From a virus: a stretch of 34,396 nucleotides of DNA. Each line of letters starts with the position of its first letter. Position 1 is the first letter of the stretch. This document shows, in pieces, positions 10,962-34,396 of this stretch. The stretch covers positions 1-34,396 of the IMG/VR virus record IMGVR_UViG_3300025362_000025. One strand, given 5' to 3'. Both the position numbers and the translations under genes were made by a program. Under the pieces are notes generated by a model that saw only the letters and a list, made by a program, of their open reading frames with translations, was not told the origin of the DNA and searched no databases.

Positions 10962-13900
10962 TTATCTTCTTTTCACTCTTCGCCTTGTTGTTCTAATTCT
11001 ACCAGTTTTTTTTAAAGACTGCTTGAAATTTGCATCTCTTATATTTTTAGTTTTCAAAGTATCAAGAAATCTTTTTGTTTTAATACCAGGCAGTTTGTCT
11101 AAAACTTCTCTTAACTGTTTCTTTTCATCTTCTGTTGATTGCTCATATCTAAGCCAGAATTGATTAGCTCTTTCCTCTGGTGTAAGTCTTTTTATTTGCA
11201 TCCACCATCTTCTATCCGGAATATCTTTTAACTTTTCGCTATCAGAAAATCTTTTACTTAATCTTTTAGATTCTAAAGGTGTCTCTTGATTTTTAATAAA
11301 AGTTTCTATTTCTTCTTTTGTTTTCTTATCATCAAAATAATCTTGAACCATGTTATCTAATTTCAAAGTGTTTTCATAAGCCTTTGAGTTTGCTTTTATT
11401 TTAGCTTCATCAATTTTTTTCTGATACTTATAGTATGAGTCTGTCTTTTTCAAAAACTTTCTTATGAATGGAATTTTAAGTATTCTATCTTGAATAACAT
11501 CCTTATTCTTTCTCTCTTCTTCAAATAGTTTTGTATAAGCATAATCGCCTAATGAAGTATAAATGTTTCCAGAAGTGAATATTTGTTCAAGAGCGACTTT
11601 AAGTCTGTCAGGAGACATACCCAATGTTTCACCTGCTTTTTTAAAGAATGGATGTGTATATGAGGTTTGTTCTAATTCAGGTTTAACTTTTTTACCCTTC
11701 CATATAGGCTGACCTCTCCATATATCTATGTTTGCTGAGTAAGCTATAATGGCATCCAATGTAGGAGGAATCCCTTGTGCAGGCATATACGGTAGAAAGT
11801 CTTGTATGGTTTTAACTATCTGTTCTGGATCTACTTCTTTACCCAATGACATTGCGGTAAGGTTTTCAAATATAGAACTTATAACTCTTTGTCCTTGGTC
11901 TTTAGCAATCTTTACATATCTCTTTCTCGTATTGCCTTCTTTGTCAATATATTCACTGTTAGGTATAAGTATATTAAAATAGTTTCTTTTATCTGTAGGA
12001 GAAATCTTATCATATTCGTCTTCATCAGATCCAACATTAAACATATAAAGAAGTGTACTTGCTACTCCAAGTTGTGCCGCTTTATACATTGTTTGAGCAG
12101 GTCTATCTTTACTTGCTCTAAATATACCTCTTGAACCTTGTATTCCTGCATTTAGATAAGGTATAATATTGCTTGCAGCCTTTGTCATTCTACCGCCTTG
12201 AGAAAAATCAAGATAGTTTCTTGCTTTCCATGTTGCTTCTTTTCTGTCTTCTAAAGATAATTCAGATACTTTAACTCCTTTTTTCTTAGCAATATTTATT
12301 AATTCTTGTTCTCTTAAAGCAAGTCTTGTTAATATTTCAGAAGTTTCACCAGAATAACTTAAAATACCTTGTACTTTTTCTATCTTTTTATTAACAGTAT
12401 TTTCAAACAATCTACCTTGATTAGAAAGAAAATCCATTCCACCGCCTTCATCTATATAATCGTTATATCTTCCTTTTCTTGAAACAGCATCTGTAAAAAC
12501 TTCAGACATTCTTTTAGCAATTTGAGCACCCGCAATAGGAAGTGTAGAAGAAAAAGCATCTGTGGTTAATAGAATGTGTGCTATATCTCTTGGAGTGTTT
12601 GTAATTATAAATTCAGGGTTAACGCCTGTTGCCATCATTTTTAATATTTTAGTTCCAGAGAATATCTGTAAAATTTGAGTTTGCATCATAGAAAAAATAG
12701 GATCACTTTTAATCCACTCAATAGCTAAATCAGAAGGCAAAATCATTTCTTGTTTCTGTCCTTCTATCATAACACTTATTTTTTCAAATCCAGGCTGTAA
12801 CTTTTCATTTTTTTCAGCAATCTGAACTAAACCGTTTTCAGGATTAGACTCTGCTAAATTATACATTTCTTGGTTAGCAATGTTTTTAAATATCCTTGCT
12901 TGAGTTCTTGCTATTACAGAAGGTAATAATATTGATGTATCTGTTTCTATAAGTCTCAAAGAACCTTCATCAGTAAGTTTTTGTATTCCACTATTTGGAA
13001 CTGTTATCTTTTTACTGCCATCAAAAAATGTCATATCAGGATCTACATAATCAAGAACCTGTCTTGGAGAATAGTATTCGCCTGTCTCCCTTAATGCCTT
13101 TAAACTTTCTTTAGTTATTAAACCATTCTTTTCTAATTCACTTAACTGTTCATCAAATGCAGACCAATACTTTTTAGCTTTATCCTCTATTTTACTTTTG
13201 ATATCAGCAGGAATATTATTTATAGTCTTCTGAAATTCTTGTACCTTTGTATTATTTTGAAATGTAAAATCAGGTTTTCTTTTAAGTATTTCAAGAGATC
13301 TTTTAGCAAATATATAAGCATCAAAATGTTTCTTTTCAGTCTTATTCATATCTCCAAATATAGACTCTGTAAATTCATTTATTTTCTTAACAGCTTTTGC
13401 AGAAGCACCTGCAATTAAATCATGGTGCATTACTACTTTTTTTCCTGCATCACCAAGGCTGTATAAGAAGTCTTTTATGTTTGCACTTTCATCTATTATG
13501 TTTCTTTTTAAGAATTTTATAATTTTAGTTTTTGTTATCTTTCTTTTTATTTTAGATAACTTTTCAGACTGTTCTATGGTGTCATATACAGAAGTTAATT
13601 CAGGTTCTTCAGACTTCTTTATTTCTTTTGTATCAGTTTTTACAGGCTCTACAACTTTATCAGGATCATAAGCATTAACTTCATCCTTAGTCATACCAAC
13701 TTTAGAGGTATCAGTATTAGGATCATCTATGAGCTGATTCATTGCTTGCTTTAATCCTTTTATATAATCGTTTCTTTTATCTGCTGTAACTCTGCTGAGA
13801 ACATTTTTAGTTATGTCTTGTAGTTTATATATACCTTTTTTAAAATAAGCTTTAATGAGCTTTGCAGAAGCTTTAACAAGCGGTGCGTTCATTGGTACTA

Positions 13901-16900
13901 AACCGCCAAGTATTTTACCTTGTGCCCTCTTAACTTCTTTCCAAGCATTTTCTATTTCTTTGTCAACTGCTTGTAGCTTAGTGTCTTGTTTACCAGTAGG
14001 ATTATTCAAGTCAAATGAAGTAGTAACCTTAGCGAATGAATTTCTAATAGGCATTATAAAAGCTATATTTTTTTTATTGTTAGCGTCTCTTATTCTCATA
14101 GGTTCATAGGCTTCTTTAATTGAAACTTCTATTTCATCTATTCCTAACTTTTTAAAAGTCTCTAATGCCTTTTGCAAATTATTTGGATTTATACGAAGTT
14201 CTAAATCACCTTGTTTTATTTTAGCTAACACATCGTCTTTATTTTGTAAAAGTTTTTCAACAGCAGACATACCTCTTGCTTTATCTAAAAGATCGTCTGT
14301 TTTCATTTGTTTATATTTTTGATTGCTTGAATTGTCAATTATTTCTGATGCATAAGGGAACTCAGCATTTAATTTTTTACCTGTTAGTTTTTTATTATTT
14401 TTATCTATTTCAAAAATGCCACCTTCTTTTACATCTGCTTCTACAGTAATGAAAATGCCACCATTGGTTGCTTGTATTCTTTGATTCTTTTTATCGAAGA
14501 ACACTCCTGAATATTGAATTTTTTCTCTTGTTTTATCTGCAAAAGGAATTATTATTTCTTCAATAGGATTATTTGACTTTTTAATTTTTTTCTTTATTGG
14601 AGTAACATCTATATCAATAACTTTAGCAAGTCCTGGAATTATTATTTTATCTTCTTTTTTCTTTGGAGTTTTAGGAAGAACACCTGATAACAGTTCTTTT
14701 AATTTAGATATAAAACTTTCAGGAAAGTTCTTACCATAGTATTCACCTGCTATTAAATTACCTTTTGATGTAACGTTTTTTTCACTCATATCACCAACAG
14801 ATGTTTTTTTCTCTGATGTTTTATTTTTTATTGCTTCATTTAATATCTCGGTTGCTTTTTCAAAGTTTAATATTGTTTTACCATTAAGACCAGTGTTAGA
14901 AGTTGCAGGTCTTACATCAACAGCATTTTTAGTATCTTTAGGTTTGTCAAAATAATAAGGATTAAGTCCAACATCTTTAGCTTTTTGTGAAGCATTTTTA
15001 TATGTTTGTTCTATGTCTGTTTTTTTCTTTCTTCTCTCTTCAAGATTTTTCTTAAACTCTATTGCTGTTTTTATAGTATCTATTTGTTTACCGTATATAG
15101 CTGAATCTTTTGAAGATTCACCTATTGATCTATTACCAGATAATACTCTTCGTTGTTGTCCTTCCATAAATAAAGCTAAATCTTCTAACTCTTCAAATGA
15201 AAATTTATCCAACGATTTTGTAGAAGCATTAACACTCATTGCTCTACTTCTTTTATCAAGTTCTCCTTTTTTATATTCATAAGGTTTCTTCTCAACAGTC
15301 AAAGATTCTTTTACAGTTGGTTTAGTTTTATTCTCCATCAGATGATTAGCATAGTCATAAGCAGTCTTGCCTAAATCATATCCACCTACATAATATATTT
15401 TTTTCTTACCTGAATCTTTTATTCTCTGTTCATGAGCGTCTTGCTCTCTTTGATTCGCTCTGTTAGATGCCAACCTTGTCATAGGCTGAATTTTATCAAC
15501 CTCTTCTACGCTTATTTTAGCATTGTCATTTACAAGTTCTCTAACCTTTTCTTTTTTTGTCATTAGTTTGCCATCAAAATTAAACATTTTATTTAATGCT
15601 TTTATAACTTGACCTCTGCGCATTTTAGGCATATCTTTATCAAAGCCATCTACATTTTCTTGTTCTTTTTTCTTTATTGTTTCTTCTGTTTTAATTATTT
15701 CTTGTTTTTTATTAAAAGCAATATTACGCTTTTCTTTTTCTATTTCAAATGTTTGTTCTTTTTCAGCAATTTCAATAGTATCATAAAACGGATCACTGAA
15801 ACTTTGTGATAATTCTTTTGGCAATTTCACAGCATACTTAACACCTTTAGGAGTGTTTACTTTATATATTGAAAACTTATCTTTTGGAATATCAAAAGTA
15901 TATTTATCAGCTTTCTTTACTGCCACTTTTTGCTTAACTGTTTCTTTGAGTGTAGGTTTAACTTTAACAGGCTCTATTTTAGCTTCTGGCTGTACTTCTT
16001 GTTTTTGTGGTGTGATTATAGTCTTTTGTTTTTTAGCTTCTACTTTAGTCTTCACAGCTTCAACGAGAGGTTTCTTGTTAGCTTTCTTTTCTTTTGCTAA
16101 CTTCATTGCTCTTGAAATCGCTGTTTCCTGTACTGGTTCTACTTCTTTTTTAGATTCTATATCAAAATTAGTTTTCCCTATAATTTTACCTGTTTCAATA
16201 TTTAATTCTTTAATTTTTTTATTAAATGTTTCTATTTTTTCTTTATATTCAACTAATCTATTTTTGTTTTCTTTTATAAATCTTTCTCTTAATTTTATTG
16301 AACTATCCCATTGCCCTTTATAATTTTCTTTTCTTTTTTTATATTCTTTTATTTCTTTTTTATATTCTTTAGTTCTATTTAAATTAGCGTCAATTTCTCC
16401 TTGGTAATATTTTAATTTTTTTTTATTTTGTTTTAAACTTAAACTTGCTTCTCTATTTATGTTTTCTTGTACTGTTCCAGTTCTTATTTCATTAGACGCT
16501 TTTTTTATAACATTATCTAATAAATTTTTTATAGGAACAAGTTCATTTCCTGCTTTATTTATTTCATCTGTAAGTCTTTTATATATAATATTAATATCGC
16601 CATCACTTACACCAGTTTTTTTAATAATTTTTTTAATATGATTACTCATAAAAGTTTTTAATTTATCAGTATTTACTCCAACATTTTTAATATTTAATTC
16701 TTCGCCAACCATTAATGAATCTTTTAAACTATCAATATGTTTTTTTATAGCTTCTGGTGTTGAGGATAAAAAATTTTGTTTAAATAATGATGTTGTTTTC
16801 TTCAATATATTAATAATTTTTATTTGTTTTTCATTAGGTTTTATAATTTCTTTTTTCTTAGGTTCAACTTTGTCTTTAACTGTTTCAACAAGAGGTTTTT

Positions 16901-18929
16901 CTTTTACATTAATATCTTCTGCTATTACTTCTGGCTTAGTCTGTTCATTGAGGTCTACCGTTACACCTCTATCAGCTTCTATTTGTTGTAGTTCGTCAAG
17001 CTGTGCTTTCTGTTCAGGAGTAATATTATCTGTAAGTTTCTCACCTGTAACAGGATTTTTAATAGTATTTATATCAATCTTGCCTTTAGGTTGTGAAATC
17101 ATTTTTGCTAACTTTTGACTTGTAACGCCTATTGGTCCGCCTGCTGCTGCCATTATGAGAGTAGAAAAAAGAACTTGTTTTGCTTGCTCAGGCAAGGTTT
17201 TAGCCCACTTAGATAAATTTTCTTCATAGCTTTCATCATCTTTTGTTTTTGCTATTGTATCAGAAAAACCTTGTGCTACCGTTGTTAATCCTTCACTTAT
17301 AAGTTCTGACACAAGATATTTTTCAAGCTTTTCTAAAATTGGTGCTGTTGATTTTCCAAATAACTTTTTCATCGGGAAATACTCAAATGCAGTTTCTATA
17401 CCACCTTGAAGTAATCCCATTCCTGCAGCAGACCAAGGAGACCATTTTTCATTATCTATAAAATCATTGTAAGTGCTTGAAGCTTCTTGTGCACCACCGT
17501 ATAAAGCACCTGCAACCGTTGCTGCAAAAGGAGCACCTGCACCAGATAGCCCTCCACCCATAGCCATTGCAGGAGCCATCATTCCTAAGTTTTCTAATGC
17601 CATTGCAACAGTTTCTGAGTTTGAACCTTTTTTAAATTTAGGTCTCATTTCATTTGCTGATTTAGTCCAATAATCAATAGCAGTCTTTCCAAGGTTTGTT
17701 AAGGTTTCTTGACCTGTTACATCACCTATAAATCTTAATGCAGTTCCAGGCATAGACATACCACCTGTCATTCCTGTACCTATTGCAGCAGGAGCAGTTT
17801 TAACATTTTGAGCAAGATCTTTAAGTCTATAATCAGAATAAGGAACTTCAAAAAAATCATCTTCATCAACAACTGTAGGAATTTCATCCTTTACTTCAAC
17901 ATCAGTAGGAACGGTTTTAGCTTTGCTTTCTCTTACATCACCAGGGTATTCAAAAGATTGCATAGACTTCTCAGGTATAATATTGAATATATCATTCATC
18001 AAACTCTTCTTTGATATTTCATATTCATTATCATCTGCTATATCAAGTGACATATCCATTTTAGTATTTATGTAATCAAGCTTTACTTTTTCATTTTCAT
18101 TAATAAGATTGTTTTCATCTTGGAACATCAAATATTCATAATAGTTTTTAGAAGCAAACTTTCTATCACTTTCATCTGCTTTTACATTCTTGTATATGAA
18201 CTCAGCAATATCTTTACCTTCTCTTGCTGTTGATGCAGAAGGATCTTGTGAAGCATCTACTTGTACCGATTCCATTGTAGGAGCATTTACAGAGTTAGTC
18301 TGTCCTGCTTCTACAAGAAAGTCATTCAATGTCACATCACCCTTTGCAACTCTTCTAAAAGCATTGTTGGTCATATTATCAACTACATTATCTGTTGCAG
18401 TTGGAACTAATGTTTTAAGTCTCTGTTTGAAAGTTTCTCTACCTGTCTGCAAAAGTTTTTTGAGAGAAACATTCTGTATCTTATTCTTTATTGCTCCATA
18501 AGCAAAAGCAGATACAGCGGCCTTTTCAGGAGCTATACCTTTCTCTTTTAATGGATTGAACTTATCCACAAAGTCTATTGTATCATCGTAATCAATAACA
18601 TTCTTTACAGCAGTTTCATCACCGCCAAATACAGTCTTCTGACCATTCATAAATATAGAGTTTGTTTCATTATCAGGTTGTACTTGCTGTTGTTGTGGCT
18701 GTTGAGGTTGTGATAACTCTGGTAAAGATATAGATTCACTTAAAGAAGGCAAAGATTGATTTCTTTGAATACTACTTAAACCACCCTGTACAGACTCAGG
18801 AGACTCTTCTTGTGTAGTTTTTTGGTTTGCTATATCATCAGCAGCAGTCTGTCTTTCCTGTTCTGTTAACGCTTTAAATGCAGGTTCATTAGCCATTAAT
18901 TTATCATATACATATCTTGATGAAGCCAT
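10962..18929 (-). CDS. Giant polyvalent virion/ejection protein (2655 aa)
   Basis: Regions in order: a Gln/Pro-rich low-complexity stretch (about 52-92); an N-terminal helical part; a Gly/Ala-rich hydrophobic region (about 375-525) such as MAPAMAMGGGLSGAGAPF; a very lysine-rich coiled coil (about 820-915); repeated KP-LVE-VK-KVE-KK linkers near 677, 951, 990 and 1201; a DnaN/beta-clamp-like region (about 1430-1630) ending FIMPIR; and a large polyvalent-protein domain resembling LPD38 (about 2090-2410, with NPEFIITNTPRDIAH). The C-terminus is basic. Polyvalent proteins are packed in the head and injected with the DNA; the neighbouring ejection-type genes agree. AGGA precedes the ATG. No lytic transglycosylase or protease domain was found. 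The family role is likely; individual activities are unknown. Confidence 0.75.
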   Translation of the reverse strand: MASSRYVYDKLMANEPAFKALTEQERQTAADDIANQKTTQEESPESVQGGLSSIQRNQSLPSLSESISLPELSQPQQPQQQQVQPDNETNSIFMNGQKTVFGGDETAVKNVIDYDDTIDFVDKFNPLKEKGIAPEKAAVSAFAYGAIKNKIQNVSLKKLLQTGRETFKQRLKTLVPTATDNVVDNMTNNAFRRVAKGDVTLNDFLVEAGQTNSVNAPTMESVQVDASQDPSASTAREGKDIAEFIYKNVKADESDRKFASKNYYEYLMFQDENNLINENEKVKLDYINTKMDMSLDIADDNEYEISKKSLMNDIFNIIPEKSMQSFEYPGDVRESKAKTVPTDVEVKDEIPTVVDEDDFFEVPYSDYRLKDLAQNVKTAPAAIGTGMTGGMSMPGTALRFIGDVTGQETLTNLGKTAIDYWTKSANEMRPKFKKGSNSETVAMALENLGMMAPAMAMGGGLSGAGAPFAATVAGALYGGAQEASSTYNDFIDNEKWSPWSAAGMGLLQGGIETAFEYFPMKKLFGKSTAPILEKLEKYLVSELISEGLTTVAQGFSDTIAKTKDDESYEENLSKWAKTLPEQAKQVLFSTLIMAAAGGPIGVTSQKLAKMISQPKGKIDINTIKNPVTGEKLTDNITPEQKAQLDELQQIEADRGVTVDLNEQTKPEVIAEDINVKEKPLVETVKDKVEPKKKEIIKPNEKQIKIINILKKTTSLFKQNFLSSTPEAIKKHIDSLKDSLMVGEELNIKNVGVNTDKLKTFMSNHIKKIIKKTGVSDGDINIIYKRLTDEINKAGNELVPIKNLLDNVIKKASNEIRTGTVQENINREASLSLKQNKKKLKYYQGEIDANLNRTKEYKKEIKEYKKRKENYKGQWDSSIKLRERFIKENKNRLVEYKEKIETFNKKIKELNIETGKIIGKTNFDIESKKEVEPVQETAISRAMKLAKEKKANKKPLVEAVKTKVEAKKQKTIITPQKQEVQPEAKIEPVKVKPTLKETVKQKVAVKKADKYTFDIPKDKFSIYKVNTPKGVKYAVKLPKELSQSFSDPFYDTIEIAEKEQTFEIEKEKRNIAFNKKQEIIKTEETIKKKEQENVDGFDKDMPKMRRGQVIKALNKMFNFDGKLMTKKEKVRELVNDNAKISVEEVDKIQPMTRLASNRANQREQDAHEQRIKDSGKKKIYYVGGYDLGKTAYDYANHLMENKTKPTVKESLTVEKKPYEYKKGELDKRSRAMSVNASTKSLDKFSFEELEDLALFMEGQQRRVLSGNRSIGESSKDSAIYGKQIDTIKTAIEFKKNLEERRKKKTDIEQTYKNASQKAKDVGLNPYYFDKPKDTKNAVDVRPATSNTGLNGKTILNFEKATEILNEAIKNKTSEKKTSVGDMSEKNVTSKGNLIAGEYYGKNFPESFISKLKELLSGVLPKTPKKKEDKIIIPGLAKVIDIDVTPIKKKIKKSNNPIEEIIIPFADKTREKIQYSGVFFDKKNQRIQATNGGIFITVEADVKEGGIFEIDKNNKKLTGKKLNAEFPYASEIIDNSSNQKYKQMKTDDLLDKARGMSAVEKLLQNKDDVLAKIKQGDLELRINPNNLQKALETFKKLGIDEIEVSIKEAYEPMRIRDANNKKNIAFIMPIRNSFAKVTTSFDLNNPTGKQDTKLQAVDKEIENAWKEVKRAQGKILGGLVPMNAPLVKASAKLIKAYFKKGIYKLQDITKNVLSRVTADKRNDYIKGLKQAMNQLIDDPNTDTSKVGMTKDEVNAYDPDKVVEPVKTDTKEIKKSEEPELTSVYDTIEQSEKLSKIKRKITKTKIIKFLKRNIIDESANIKDFLYSLGDAGKKVVMHHDLIAGASAKAVKKINEFTESIFGDMNKTEKKHFDAYIFAKRSLEILKRKPDFTFQNNTKVQEFQKTINNIPADIKSKIEDKAKKYWSAFDEQLSELEKNGLITKESLKALRETGEYYSPRQVLDYVDPDMTFFDGSKKITVPNSGIQKLTDEGSLRLIETDTSILLPSVIARTQARIFKNIANQEMYNLAESNPENGLVQIAEKNEKLQPGFEKISVMIEGQKQEMILPSDLAIEWIKSDPIFSMMQTQILQIFSGTKILKMMATGVNPEFIITNTPRDIAHILLTTDAFSSTLPIAGAQIAKRMSEVFTDAVSRKGRYNDYIDEGGGMDFLSNQGRLFENTVNKKIEKVQGILSYSGETSEILTRLALREQELINIAKKKGVKVSELSLEDRKEATWKARNYLDFSQGGRMTKAASNIIPYLNAGIQGSRGIFRASKDRPAQTMYKAAQLGVASTLLYMFNVGSDEDEYDKISPTDKRNYFNILIPNSEYIDKEGNTRKRYVKIAKDQGQRVISSIFENLTAMSLGKEVDPEQIVKTIQDFLPYMPAQGIPPTLDAIIAYSANIDIWRGQPIWKGKKVKPELEQTSYTHPFFKKAGETLGMSPDRLKVALEQIFTSGNIYTSLGDYAYTKLFEEERKNKDVIQDRILKIPFIRKFLKKTDSYYKYQKKIDEAKIKANSKAYENTLKLDNMVQDYFDDKKTKEEIETFIKNQETPLESKRLSKRFSDSEKLKDIPDRRWWMQIKRLTPEERANQFWLRYEQSTEDEKKQLREVLDKLPGIKTKRFLDTLKTKNIRDANFKQSLKKTGRIRTTRRRVKRR

Positions 18930-29473: not shown

Positions 29474-31395
29474 TGAATCAATCCTTGTTCTTTACCTGCT
29501 ATTACTGCTTGTTGCATTTCAGGAGGTAAATTACTTACTTCTTTTTGAAGTTGTTTTTGTTGTTCTTGCATCTGCATTTGCTGTTGTGCTTTCATTTGTT
29601 CTTCAGCTTGCATCTGCATTTGCTGTCTTTGTTTTTGTTCCACTTCTTCTTTTGAATAAGTATATTTGAAACCATCAAGATTTTGAGAATCATATAAATC
29701 TTTAAGTATTGCTTTAAAATTAGTCTCCATATTTACTTCAGGATTATTCATATTGTTTATAGATTGAAGCATGAACATAAGTGAATTTGCTAATTTAACT
29801 CTTCTTGAGTATGTTTCATAACCATAAGCTTTTACACTCATATCGGCATAAAAAGGAATATATTCTTCACTTCTCATAAAGAAATCATAATACTCATACC
29901 ACTGAGGAGCTAAAATGTGCCTATCTATTTTCTTCATGATATAAAGAATAAAAGCGTGAGCACCACTCATTGACTGTTCTACTTCATATCTTGTTTTTTC
30001 TACATCTATTACTTCACCTTCAAGTATCTTTGGAATACCAGAATCATCATCTGCTTCTTTAGAAGACCATTGAAGACCATCTATAAGATTCTGACTACCA
30101 GATTGAATAGTTTGAAACTGAATTATTTGACTAAGGTTTTCTACTTCATCAAGTAATTCAAACATCTTACCTGGTGCTATATCAGGAGTTTCGCCATCTG
30201 CAAGTAACGATCTTTTAACAGCACCTATTGGAACACCATCAAACTTCTTTGCGTCCATATATGCCCTTGCTACACCGTTCTGTATCTCTTGCATATCTCT
30301 CATACATTCAGGAATACCAAGACCATAAGGAGTGCCATTTTGTTTAAGCCATGTAACTACATTGATAGGCCTTTTGCCACAAATGTTTATCTTTACTGAT
30401 ATAGTTTTACTGTCAGCAATAACAATATTTACTTCTACTGTAGAAACATCATCATCTTCTTCATCAAAAAGATCTGCTATAAGTTCTCCGAAAACCTCTT
30501 CATCATATTCTAATAGTTTTTTAACAGGGCATTTACCCCAAAAATCATAGAGTGTAATTGTTTCTCTTCTTGTGGCGTTTTTATCTTTGTTAGGATTTTC
30601 TTCATTACTGCCTGATGAACTGTTTGCTTTACTTGAGTTTTTTACAACTTCTCTTACGGCGTCCATATCGTAACTTTCAGTAGGATCGTCATTTGCCATT
30701 TGTAAAAGTTCGTCAGGTCTAATAGAAGGTCTGTGTATAACACCTATACCGTCTTGGGCATCATTGCCTTCAGGGTCCATAAATACATCCCATATATCAA
30801 TGTGTTCACCTGTTGGTATCTGTTTTTTAATACAAGTCTTTTCATATCTGAGATTTTCCATATCAATAGTGCCATCTTCAGATTTAACAAATGTTTCTTC
30901 TACAGGTAACCATGTTTCTAATTTAGATGTTTTAAATTTCTTTGAACGCCAAGCACCACTGCCATGTACTATTAAATCAAAAGAAAGTTTATCAAATTCA
31001 GACTCTATATCACTTTCAGTAGCCCAATCTTTATATACTTGTTCTTGTTTATCTGCTCTTGATTGAAGTTCATCCTTATCAAGCATTTTAGCCCAAGGGC
31101 CCTCCATTACAGGAGTAGGCTCTATCTTCATTGGTATTCTTGAACCAGGAAAGAGTGTAGTTCTAATTATTGCTTGTGCAGATCTACATTTTCTCTTTGT
31201 CATATTAACAAATATTTTAGATCTCCAATCAGAACCTTCTCCGCCTTTCCACTTCACATTAAATCGACCTTCCCATTGGTCAATGTTAAGGTGCATATCA
31301 TTTTCTTTATCTTTTCTAAAAGTAGAGAAGTCTGAATATAATCCTAATACATAAGATGATAATACATCTGAATCTATTTTTTCTTTATTTGCCAT
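29470..31395 (-). CDS. Portal protein (P22/podovirus type)
   Basis: The 641-residue protein has the layout of podovirus portals: an N-terminal WEGRFNVKWKGGEGSDWRSKIFVNMTKRKC segment, a wing with IVHGSGAWRSKKF, then DPEGNDAQDGIGVIHR, YGLGIPECMRDMQEIQNGVARAYMD (stem/clip helix, about 370-395) and a Gln/Met-rich C-terminal helix (QQMQMQAEEQMKAQQQ) for the barrel. It forms the dodecameric head vertex that works with the terminase. Its ATG overlaps the terminase gene by 11 bases. Downstream neighbours are small head proteins. High confidence. Confidence 0.88.
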   Translation of the reverse strand: MANKEKIDSDVLSSYVLGLYSDFSTFRKDKENDMHLNIDQWEGRFNVKWKGGEGSDWRSKIFVNMTKRKCRSAQAIIRTTLFPGSRIPMKIEPTPVMEGPWAKMLDKDELQSRADKQEQVYKDWATESDIESEFDKLSFDLIVHGSGAWRSKKFKTSKLETWLPVEETFVKSEDGTIDMENLRYEKTCIKKQIPTGEHIDIWDVFMDPEGNDAQDGIGVIHRPSIRPDELLQMANDDPTESYDMDAVREVVKNSSKANSSSGSNEENPNKDKNATRRETITLYDFWGKCPVKKLLEYDEEVFGELIADLFDEEDDDVSTVEVNIVIADSKTISVKINICGKRPINVVTWLKQNGTPYGLGIPECMRDMQEIQNGVARAYMDAKKFDGVPIGAVKRSLLADGETPDIAPGKMFELLDEVENLSQIIQFQTIQSGSQNLIDGLQWSSKEADDDSGIPKILEGEVIDVEKTRYEVEQSMSGAHAFILYIMKKIDRHILAPQWYEYYDFFMRSEEYIPFYADMSVKAYGYETYSRRVKLANSLMFMLQSINNMNNPEVNMETNFKAILKDLYDSQNLDGFKYTYSKEEVEQKQRQQMQMQAEEQMKAQQQMQMQEQQKQLQKEVSNLPPEMQQAVIAGKEQGLIQ

Positions 31396-33274
31396 ATCCT
31401 AATACCCTCTTGTAATGATTTTTATAATCATCATATCTTTTTCTGTGTATATTTTGACTTGGAGCTTGATATCTTCTGTCTTTTGCTCTACTGTTAAGAA
31501 AATATCTTGCTTCATCAGCTATATGATCTTCAGACTTAGTGTCTATATCGTCAAGGTCTCTTTTATCATGTTGCAATGCAGGAATAGTTCTAATAAAATC
31601 TCTGCAATTATCCATTACATATAAGTCAGGAACGCCATTTTTCCCTGTCATGTATTGTCTCATTAAATCCCAGCCGGGCTTCCTTTTCTTATCTGCTTTT
31701 CTAAATCTTACTTTACCTTTACCTTCTTTTATCATTCTGCTATATAAAGAGTAACCACCATCTTCTACAAAAATGTTCCAATCCGAAACACCATAAGAAA
31801 CATTCCAATTCTTTTCTCTATATAATATTCCTTTTGTAACTTCTTCAATGTGCATCCTTATACCTTTATCAGGAATTGATACACCGTTCTTATCTTTCTC
31901 ACAACCATACCATTCAGCAAGTCTTATTACACTTCCAGAAGGATAACAAACTCCATCAGGAGCCATACTTCCATCTGCAATAGCCCACCATCCTACACTG
32001 AAAGGATGTGAAGAACCCCAATCCATTGACCTTACTATTTTCCATGTAGTCAAAGGTGGGAATGAAGGAATTATATTTTTTTCACTCCAGTCATTTGTAA
32101 AAAAACCACCTGGTACAATATCCCAATCTCCATCAAGGAAAGCTTTTCTTTTAATTGGATCTTTTATCGAAAGCAATTCATGTGCGTAAGTGGGATCGTT
32201 TGCCATGCCTATCTGGTTGTCAGTCATTTTTGCTTGTATGAAAACTCTTGTTCTACCTAAATCATCTGTCATTATTGTATATGGAGGAGCAGGATCTACA
32301 AAATATGCTTTTACCCAAAAGTGACCTGGACCACCTGGATTACCTGTACACCTTACTCTTTTTCTTTTAGCAACTTCAGGATCAGAAGTTCTACAACAAG
32401 TTCTAATGATTTCATACATTTCGTATGTGGGCCAGTTACCTATTTCATCAATCCCTATCCAAGGATATTCATGACCCCAATATTGCTCAACATCCTCTTC
32501 TTTTGCAAGGTACTTCATATAGAGTCTTGAACCTGAAGGAAATAGCCAAAAACCTTTAGACTCATTCCATATAGCACCAAGCTTAGGAAATATCTTTCTT
32601 GCTTTCTTTTTCAAATCATTCAGCTGAGGAATACTTCTTCTAAATATTATTCCATTCCATTCTTCGCCAAATTCATCAACATCTTGTAGATAATCAAGCA
32701 ATAACCAAAAAGAATTATGTGTAACATTAAAGTTTCCAGTAACATATAATCCATCTCTGTTGTTTACAGTTATACATTGTGCTTTTTCTCTGCCTGAAAA
32801 TGATATTGATTCTATTTCAACTATTTTGTCACATTCTTTTTTAACTTCATTATATTTTTGTATAAATACTTTTAAATCATTTTTTAAAAATATTATTATC
32901 TTTTCTGTATCAGTAACGAACCAATCTCCATTTTCAAATTTTATTTTCCATAAATGTTCTAATGTACATCTATCTATTGTTTCATCTGAAAATTTAAAAT
33001 CATAAATATCTTTAACACCTAAAGGATGTATAGCTATTACTTCAGTTTGTGTGCTTGTAGGGCTTGTTATAATGCTACCTACCTGTAAATTTCCCATCTC
33101 CATAAGTCCGAAAGGTGTTGATATCAGTGAGTCTAAAGTTTGCCCTTTACCTGTGAATTTTGCTCCGCCATATAGTAACTCATAAGCCATACACTCTGTT
33201 GCTGCAGTCTGTGGGCCTACCTGTGGACCAAATACTTCTTTAGGTCTTTTTAGTTTAGTTGCTGTAAAAGCCAT
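31385..33274 (-). CDS. terL: Terminase large subunit, interrupted by an in-frame intein
   Basis: The 629-residue precursor would yield a 485-residue enzyme after splicing. The extein ends GGAKFTGK at residue 43 and continues SFWLLLDYLQ at 188, so splicing rebuilds the ATPase Walker A GGAKFTGKS. The Walker B is WIGIDEIG (about residue 271), and the C-terminal nuclease keeps MDWGSS (about 416) and DDIDTKSEDHIADEARYF (about 578), the RuvC/RNase H-type metal ligands. It translocates DNA into the head through the portal. ATG 33274 overlaps the small terminase stop as TAATG. Without splicing the ATPase would be inactive. Confidence 0.92.
   Translation of the reverse strand: MAFTATKLKRPKEVFGPQVGPQTAATECMAYELLYGGAKFTGKGQTLDSLISTPFGLMEMGNLQVGSIITSPTSTQTEVIAIHPLGVKDIYDFKFSDETIDRCTLEHLWKIKFENGDWFVTDTEKIIIFLKNDLKVFIQKYNEVKKECDKIVEIESISFSGREKAQCITVNNRDGLYVTGNFNVTHNSFWLLLDYLQDVDEFGEEWNGIIFRRSIPQLNDLKKKARKIFPKLGAIWNESKGFWLFPSGSRLYMKYLAKEEDVEQYWGHEYPWIGIDEIGNWPTYEMYEIIRTCCRTSDPEVAKRKRVRCTGNPGGPGHFWVKAYFVDPAPPYTIMTDDLGRTRVFIQAKMTDNQIGMANDPTYAHELLSIKDPIKRKAFLDGDWDIVPGGFFTNDWSEKNIIPSFPPLTTWKIVRSMDWGSSHPFSVGWWAIADGSMAPDGVCYPSGSVIRLAEWYGCEKDKNGVSIPDKGIRMHIEEVTKGILYREKNWNVSYGVSDWNIFVEDGGYSLYSRMIKEGKGKVRFRKADKKRKPGWDLMRQYMTGKNGVPDLYVMDNCRDFIRTIPALQHDKRDLDDIDTKSEDHIADEARYFLNSRAKDRRYQAPSQNIHRKRYDDYKNHYKRVLGYGK
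32714..33145 (-). other. Class 3-type mini-intein in the terminase P-loop (144 aa)
   Basis: Residues 44-187 of the terminase precursor. It begins GQTLDSLISTPFGLMEMG, with no Cys or Ser nucleophile at position 1, and ends VTHN before Ser188. Key residues match the class 3 'WCT' set: Trp109 two after His107 in block B (CTLEHLW), Cys167 in block F (AQCITV), and Thr185 in block G (VTHN). His186 and Asn187 are the C-terminal pair. No LAGLIDADG or HNH endonuclease is present, so it is a mini-intein. Its DNA is more AT-rich than the flanking extein. The splice points keep the reading frame. Confidence 0.88.
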
Positions 33275-33864: not shown

Positions 33865-33890
33865 CAAAGACTGTTTACATTTGTCAACAA
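33856..33890 (-). promoter_or_regulatory. Two TTTGTCAACAA sites at the late promoter (possible operator)
   Basis: On the plus strand CTTTGTCAACAAAG (33856-33869) is a perfect 6+2+6 palindrome lying over the -35, and its core TTTGTCAACAA recurs at 33880-33890 at 23-bp spacing, over the methyltransferase stop. Repeated palindromes on a -35 are a usual repressor arrangement. No cognate regulator is identified. Confidence 0.4.
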
Positions 33891-34396
33891 CATTTTATTT
33901 GTATAGGTTGTTTTAATCTCTCTTTTCCTATTTCAAAATACTTATCATCTTTTTCAATGCCTATGAAGTTTCTATTAGTATTTTTACAAGCTACTCCTGT
34001 TGTACCAGAACCCATTGTGAAATCTAAAACTGTCTCACCTTCATTTGTGTAAGTTTTGATTAGATATTCCATTAGGGCTACTGGTTTTTGGGTTGGATGT
34101 TGTTTTCCCTTTCTACCATCTGGTAAATCAAACTTTATTAAATTTATTGGGTGTTTATACCATTGTTCTTCTTCCGTTTTCCTTATTAAAACGCCTTTTG
34201 TTCCCTTTCCAAATTGCTCACCATTATTATTAACACTATCATTTTTTCTATAACAAGCCTTAAATTCTTCAGGTGTTCTTTTTATTTTTTGTGGGTTATA
34301 AGTCGGTTGTTTTTTATAAAAAACACTAATTTGCTCTAATGCTCTCATTGGTTGCCTTTTTGCCATAAAATTACCTGTTGGCTTGTTTTTTTGCCA
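33884..34396 (-). CDS. DNA methyltransferase (N6-adenine/N4-cytosine type), 5' end outside window
   Basis: The frame is open through the right edge: ten codons before ATG 34366 read WQKNKPTGNF without a stop and continue smoothly into AKRQPMRALEQISVFYKKQPTYNPQ, so ATG 34366 is internal. The visible 170 residues carry HPTQKPVALMEYLI and DFTMGSGTTGVA, the S-adenosylmethionine-binding motifs X and I of PF01555-type methyltransferases, then the NRNFIGIEKDDKYFEIG segment. The catalytic DPPY-type motif IV should lie in the missing N-terminal part. Phages use such enzymes to evade restriction. No partner nuclease is visible. Specificity is unknown. Confidence 0.82.
   Translation of the reverse strand, partial: WQKNKPTGNFMAKRQPMRALEQISVFYKKQPTYNPQKIKRTPEEFKACYRKNDSVNNNGEQFGKGTKGVLIRKTEEEQWYKHPINLIKFDLPDGRKGKQHPTQKPVALMEYLIKTYTNEGETVLDFTMGSGTTGVACKNTNRNFIGIEKDDKYFEIGKERLKQPIQIKCC

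Follow-up and report, generated by a model that had tools for sequence, protein, structure and literature searches.

The interrupted terminase gene

How does a phage terminase large subunit (TerL) become a packaging ATPase when 144 residues separate the Lys from the Ser of its Walker A motif? The question is raised by a gene near one end of the window, which is the whole 34,396-nucleotide stretch analysed here (IMG/VR record IMGVR_UViG_3300025362_000025). The reading we favour, with a probability of about 0.93, is that the Walker A loop of this phage TerL is split by a class 3 mini-intein, putatively competent for splicing. This draws on the sequence, a predicted fold and analogy with characterised inteins.

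The host protein is a terminase large subunit. In addition to its profile matches (Table 1), relatives have an unbroken Walker A motif and a homologous C-extein. The motif was located in 69 viral-contig loci, of which 68 have an uninterrupted GGARGGGK[S/T] or something similar; the remaining one is a near-identical sister contig. The C-extein is 37-39% identical to the best phage TerLs, and an identity of about 41% to phage TerLs was also obtained. Neither extein lacks a part, and both are collinear with the TerLs that have no intein. The insertion point lies between Lys43 and Ser188 (GGAKFTGK^S). The boundaries proposed in a preliminary description of this DNA are exact: on the minus strand, the intein codons occupy positions 33145 to 32714 of an open 629-aa frame.

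Table 1. Coordinates of the TerL precursor, its exteins and the catalytic residues of the intein (intein numbering for single residues unless stated).
Feature	Position	Strand	Basis or remark
TerL precursor ORF, 629 aa	31385..33274	minus	Pfam Terminase_6N 1.6e-06; phrog_979 terminase large subunit 3.9e-32
N-extein, aa 1-43, Walker A end ...GGAKFTGK	33146..33274	minus	matches uninterrupted GGARGGGK[ST] of intein-free relatives
Class 3 mini-intein, 144 aa, aa 44-187	32714..33145	minus	sequence anatomy, family profile, predicted fold
Gly1, non-nucleophilic first residue	33143..33145	minus	Gly also at position 1 in L025 and L065
Trp66 (B:12 of the WCT triplet)	32948..32950	minus	aligned with class 3 relatives
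Cys124 (F:4), presumed initiating nucleophile, precursor Cys167	32774..32776	minus	
Thr142-His143-Asn144 (block G, THN)	32714..32722	minus	
C-extein from Ser+1 (Walker A Ser188), remaining ATPase and nuclease domains	31385..32713	minus	

Class and integrity of the intein

Is the insertion an intein at all? Neither Pfam nor NCBIfam has an intein match to the 144 residues, which might suggest an unrelated domain or an assembly artefact that merely resembles an intein. However, a phmmer search of the PDB finds gp41-1 at 6e-06, and a five-row family profile, built from the window intein and four of its class 3 relatives, reaches class 3 DnaB inteins at 1e-12; together these exclude chance resemblance. 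The profile matches comprise gp41-1 (including its WCT-grafted variant 6riz), 6bs8 and 6rix/6riy, and in the class 3 structures the Cys and THN residues are aligned. An AlphaFold2 model predicts a HINT fold (pLDDT 86.3, pTM 0.79), for which the best Foldseek matches are 6riy, 6riz and 6bs8 (E about 1e-08 for 6riy and 6bs8, both class 3). Moreover, the same insert is present in the sister contig and a homologous one occupies the same site in the closest relative (L013, see below). An unrelated insertion is thus refuted by the profile and fold matches, and we give it practically no chance.

The next question is which class of intein this is. In the phmmer search the class 1 intein gp41-1 and an engineered variant of it rank highest, so overall similarity alone cannot fix the class. 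The catalytic residues do. Position 1 is Gly rather than Cys, Ser or Thr. Block B reads CTLEHLW (Cys60 to Trp66), with His64 two residues ahead of Trp66; block F reads QCITV, with Cys124 as its second residue; and the intein ends in VTHN (Thr142, His143, Asn144), followed by the nucleophilic Ser+1 (Ser188). When aligned with class 3 relatives and with 6bs8/6rix, the WCT triplet is complete (Trp66 at B:12, Cys124 at F:4 and Thr142 at G:5). A full triplet accompanied by the block B His is what has been described for class 3 inteins (PMC7664689, PMC6195587). The alignment and the predicted fold therefore uphold the class 3 assignment of the preliminary description, which had also recognised the Gly and the three signature residues correctly. 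It had named a close homologue with Cys at position 1 as evidence to the contrary; the closest one has Ala there.

The absence of a homing endonuclease was likewise read correctly. Searches of domain families give no LAGLIDADG or HNH match to the 144-residue intein, and only 57 residues lie between Trp66 and Cys124. Endonuclease-bearing relatives, in contrast, match LAGLIDADG_3. The sequence, the 72 viral and 80 bacterial relatives and the predicted fold support the class 3 identity, the mini form and the Walker A site.

Could it be a relic? In this alternative the insertion would be a class 2-like or cleavage-only remnant that yields cleavage products and not spliced TerL, with packaging carried out by another protein. 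The missing nucleophile at position 1 is in keeping with this, and a pseudogene-like class 3 intein is known from Arthrobacter (Arth_1007; PMC3196547). However, all class 3 catalytic residues and both extein junctions are intact, the exteins are whole and collinear when set against intein-free TerLs, and the reading frame is kept in the second contig. None of the other window proteins scanned stood out as a second TerL, although the record is possibly a fragment. We therefore consider a relic very unlikely. The intein of the window is confirmed as real and intact, and as ordinary for its kind, a group that is large and already recognised.

Relatives and precedents

The preliminary description considered class 3 inteins uncommon compared with class 1. 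That weighting needs correcting, as they are plentiful in phages: pattern scans gave 467 confirmed matches in IMG/VR, and 226 in GTDB genomes. Phage records and IMG/VR yielded a viral set of 72 distinct inteins. Trp is present in 70 of these, Cys and Thr in all 72, Lys at -1 in 71 and Ser or Thr at +1 in 72. Position 1 is non-nucleophilic in 68; across all 72 it is Ala in 44, Glu in 12, Gly in 3, Cys in 3, Ser in 1 and others in 9. The bacterial genome set (80) has Trp and Cys throughout (80/80 each), Ala at position 1 in 76/80 and GK ahead of the junction in 75/80. The search pattern came from block F in the viral scan and from block G in the genome scan, which biases the Cys count of the former and the Thr count of the latter; Trp, residue 1 and Lys-1 were unselected in both.

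Given the near-universal Lys-1 and Ser/Thr+1, the clade is almost confined to Walker A K^S/T sites; the proteins that carry them include terminases, helicases, PhoH and an SbcC-like ATPase. Therefore, the placement between Lys and Ser, although described exactly at the outset, is not special: it is the usual site of this clade.

A few relatives depart from the pattern. L059, L061 and L074 (ORF from 2012) form a more distant group with 207-aa inteins at GAGK^C...THN^T, which combine the class 3 motif with a class 1-like first residue: the WCT triplet is full, yet position 1 is Cys. In L054 and L032 the class 3 Cys and THN are present, with the block B Trp replaced by Cys or Asn.

Precedents in terminases are close. 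Inteins at the P-loop of mycobacteriophage TerLs, and class 3 TerL inteins, have been described (Kelley 2016, PMC5050341, in excerpt). In the same excerpt, TerL1-a sits at the Lys^Thr P-loop site of TerL, the site used in the window, but is not among the TerL inteins named there as class 3 (TerL1-c, -d and -e). The TerL inteins of Acinetobacter phage TaPaz, whose TerL is annotated as intein-containing, and Pseudoalteromonas phage HM1 carry the class 3 signature and are likewise in Walker A (Lys^Thr). However, they have an insert of endonuclease size (355 and 361 aa) and Ala or Val at position 1. A class 3 mini-intein of 145 aa sits in the P-loop of L017, which is probably a T7-type terminase.

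The closest relative is L013, the TerL of IMG/VR 3300035698_005559. Its intein is likewise a mini form of 144 aa, occupies the same site and shares 41% identity with that of the window; the exteins are 36% identical. L013 differs in having Ala1 and in that its nuclease domain holds a further intein, of the Cys1 type. That intein (aa 611-918 of the ORF from 1945) is about 308 aa long, starts with Cys and ends in SN^T (DLEDID^C...CSN^TDAEDH), and it matches Pfam Intein_splicing and Hint_2. A single terminase, that of L013, thus combines a class 3 intein in the P-loop with a Cys1-type intein at the nuclease site. In L051, another TerL with a P-loop class 3 intein (ORF from 2357), a second Cys1 Hint domain starts at the matching nuclease place, from about aa 774 onward (DLDTHQNDHYCFVAGTKV...). 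A stop precedes any recognised end of this second intein, which is perhaps decayed, split or frameshifted. Neither the window record nor the sister contig contains a second copy of the window intein.

Among inteins with solved structures, DnaBi1 of M. smegmatis (6bs8) and MchDnaB1 (6rix/6riy) resemble the window intein in their P-loop insertion, the WCT triplet, the lack of an endonuclease, a size of about 140 aa and the HINT fold. For DnaBi1 (DnaB-1), a published class 3 mini-intein, both the P-loop position and Ser+1 have been described (PMC6195587). However, both reside in a DnaB helicase and have Ala rather than Gly at position 1, the block B motif is DxxH in DnaBi1 but TxxH in the window, and the fold alignment gives a low identity overall (20-25%).

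Splicing and ATPase activity

Splicing most likely follows the steps worked out for characterised class 3 inteins. His64 and Thr142 would activate Cys124, which would then attack the Lys43-Gly44 bond to form a block F branched intermediate. The N-extein would then be taken over by Ser+1. Finally, Asn144 would cyclise and the exteins would be ligated as GGAKFTGKS, giving a packaging ATPase of 485 aa (629-144), the length given in the preliminary description. Class 3 mini-inteins of this anatomy do splice (Msm DnaB-1, Mle DnaB and Bvi IcmO; PMC5222942), although in model precursors the splicing of some class 3 mini-inteins is poor (PMC5222942).

It is sound to infer that ATPase activity would depend on splicing, because Lys43 and Ser188 of one P-loop lie 144 residues apart and because P-loop inteins have been published (RadA, cited in PMC6195587). 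The precursor would be unable to bind or hydrolyse ATP properly, and packaging would wait for splicing.

Loss of the endonuclease and persistence

Mini-inteins are usually viewed as descendants of full inteins. The tree rejects the mini forms as one clade with a single origin (AU p = 0.0033), so under that view the endonuclease was lost more than once. The endonuclease of the window intein was probably lost rather than never present. The pairing of L013 with the window intein is neither shown nor rejected by the tree test (p 0.48).

How does such an intein persist? The element would now be kept by vertical descent, and because only its exact removal would restore the gene. The sister contig, IMGVR_UViG_3300023292_000011, was the only match in single-sequence pattern searches of viral contigs. 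Its frame is open, and every base of its intein DNA matches (432/432), whereas the extein has 7 differing positions; these changes, none of them in the 432 bp, are too few to judge selection. Base composition was considered as a sign of recent arrival and dismissed: the intein has a GC content of 27.5%, where the mean is 33.0%, yet 8.5% of equally long coding segments reach values as low, which is not significant. Its composition falls inside the range seen for genes of the window.

What if the intein is retained because its splicing is conditional? In this hypothetical scenario an oxidation like that shown for M. smegmatis DnaB-1 would affect Cys124, together with Cys60 or Cys105. We regard this as improbable. 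Were it true, oxidised Cys124 would hold TerL inactive and time DNA packaging to the state of the host.

The intein of the window leaves the general picture of class 3 inteins unchanged. It is a clean endonuclease-free example in a packaging ATPase, and it can be compared with a mini relative at the same site (L013) and with many relatives that bear an endonuclease. Because a single origin of the mini forms is rejected, such inteins can help to explore why mini forms persist.

Other genes in the window

Three further genes of the window, all on the minus strand, can be mentioned. The gene at 10962-18929 encodes a 2655-aa protein with an LPD38 domain (2.4e-10) and lies within the virion gene block. 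A PAPS-reductase-domain protein (PF01507, 3.8e-25) is encoded at 238-1212, near genes for AAA_24 and PD-(D/E)XK nuclease proteins. An N6/N4 DNA methyltransferase gene (PF01555, 4.6e-28) at 33884-34396 is cut by the end of the window, and the sister contig likewise begins within this gene.
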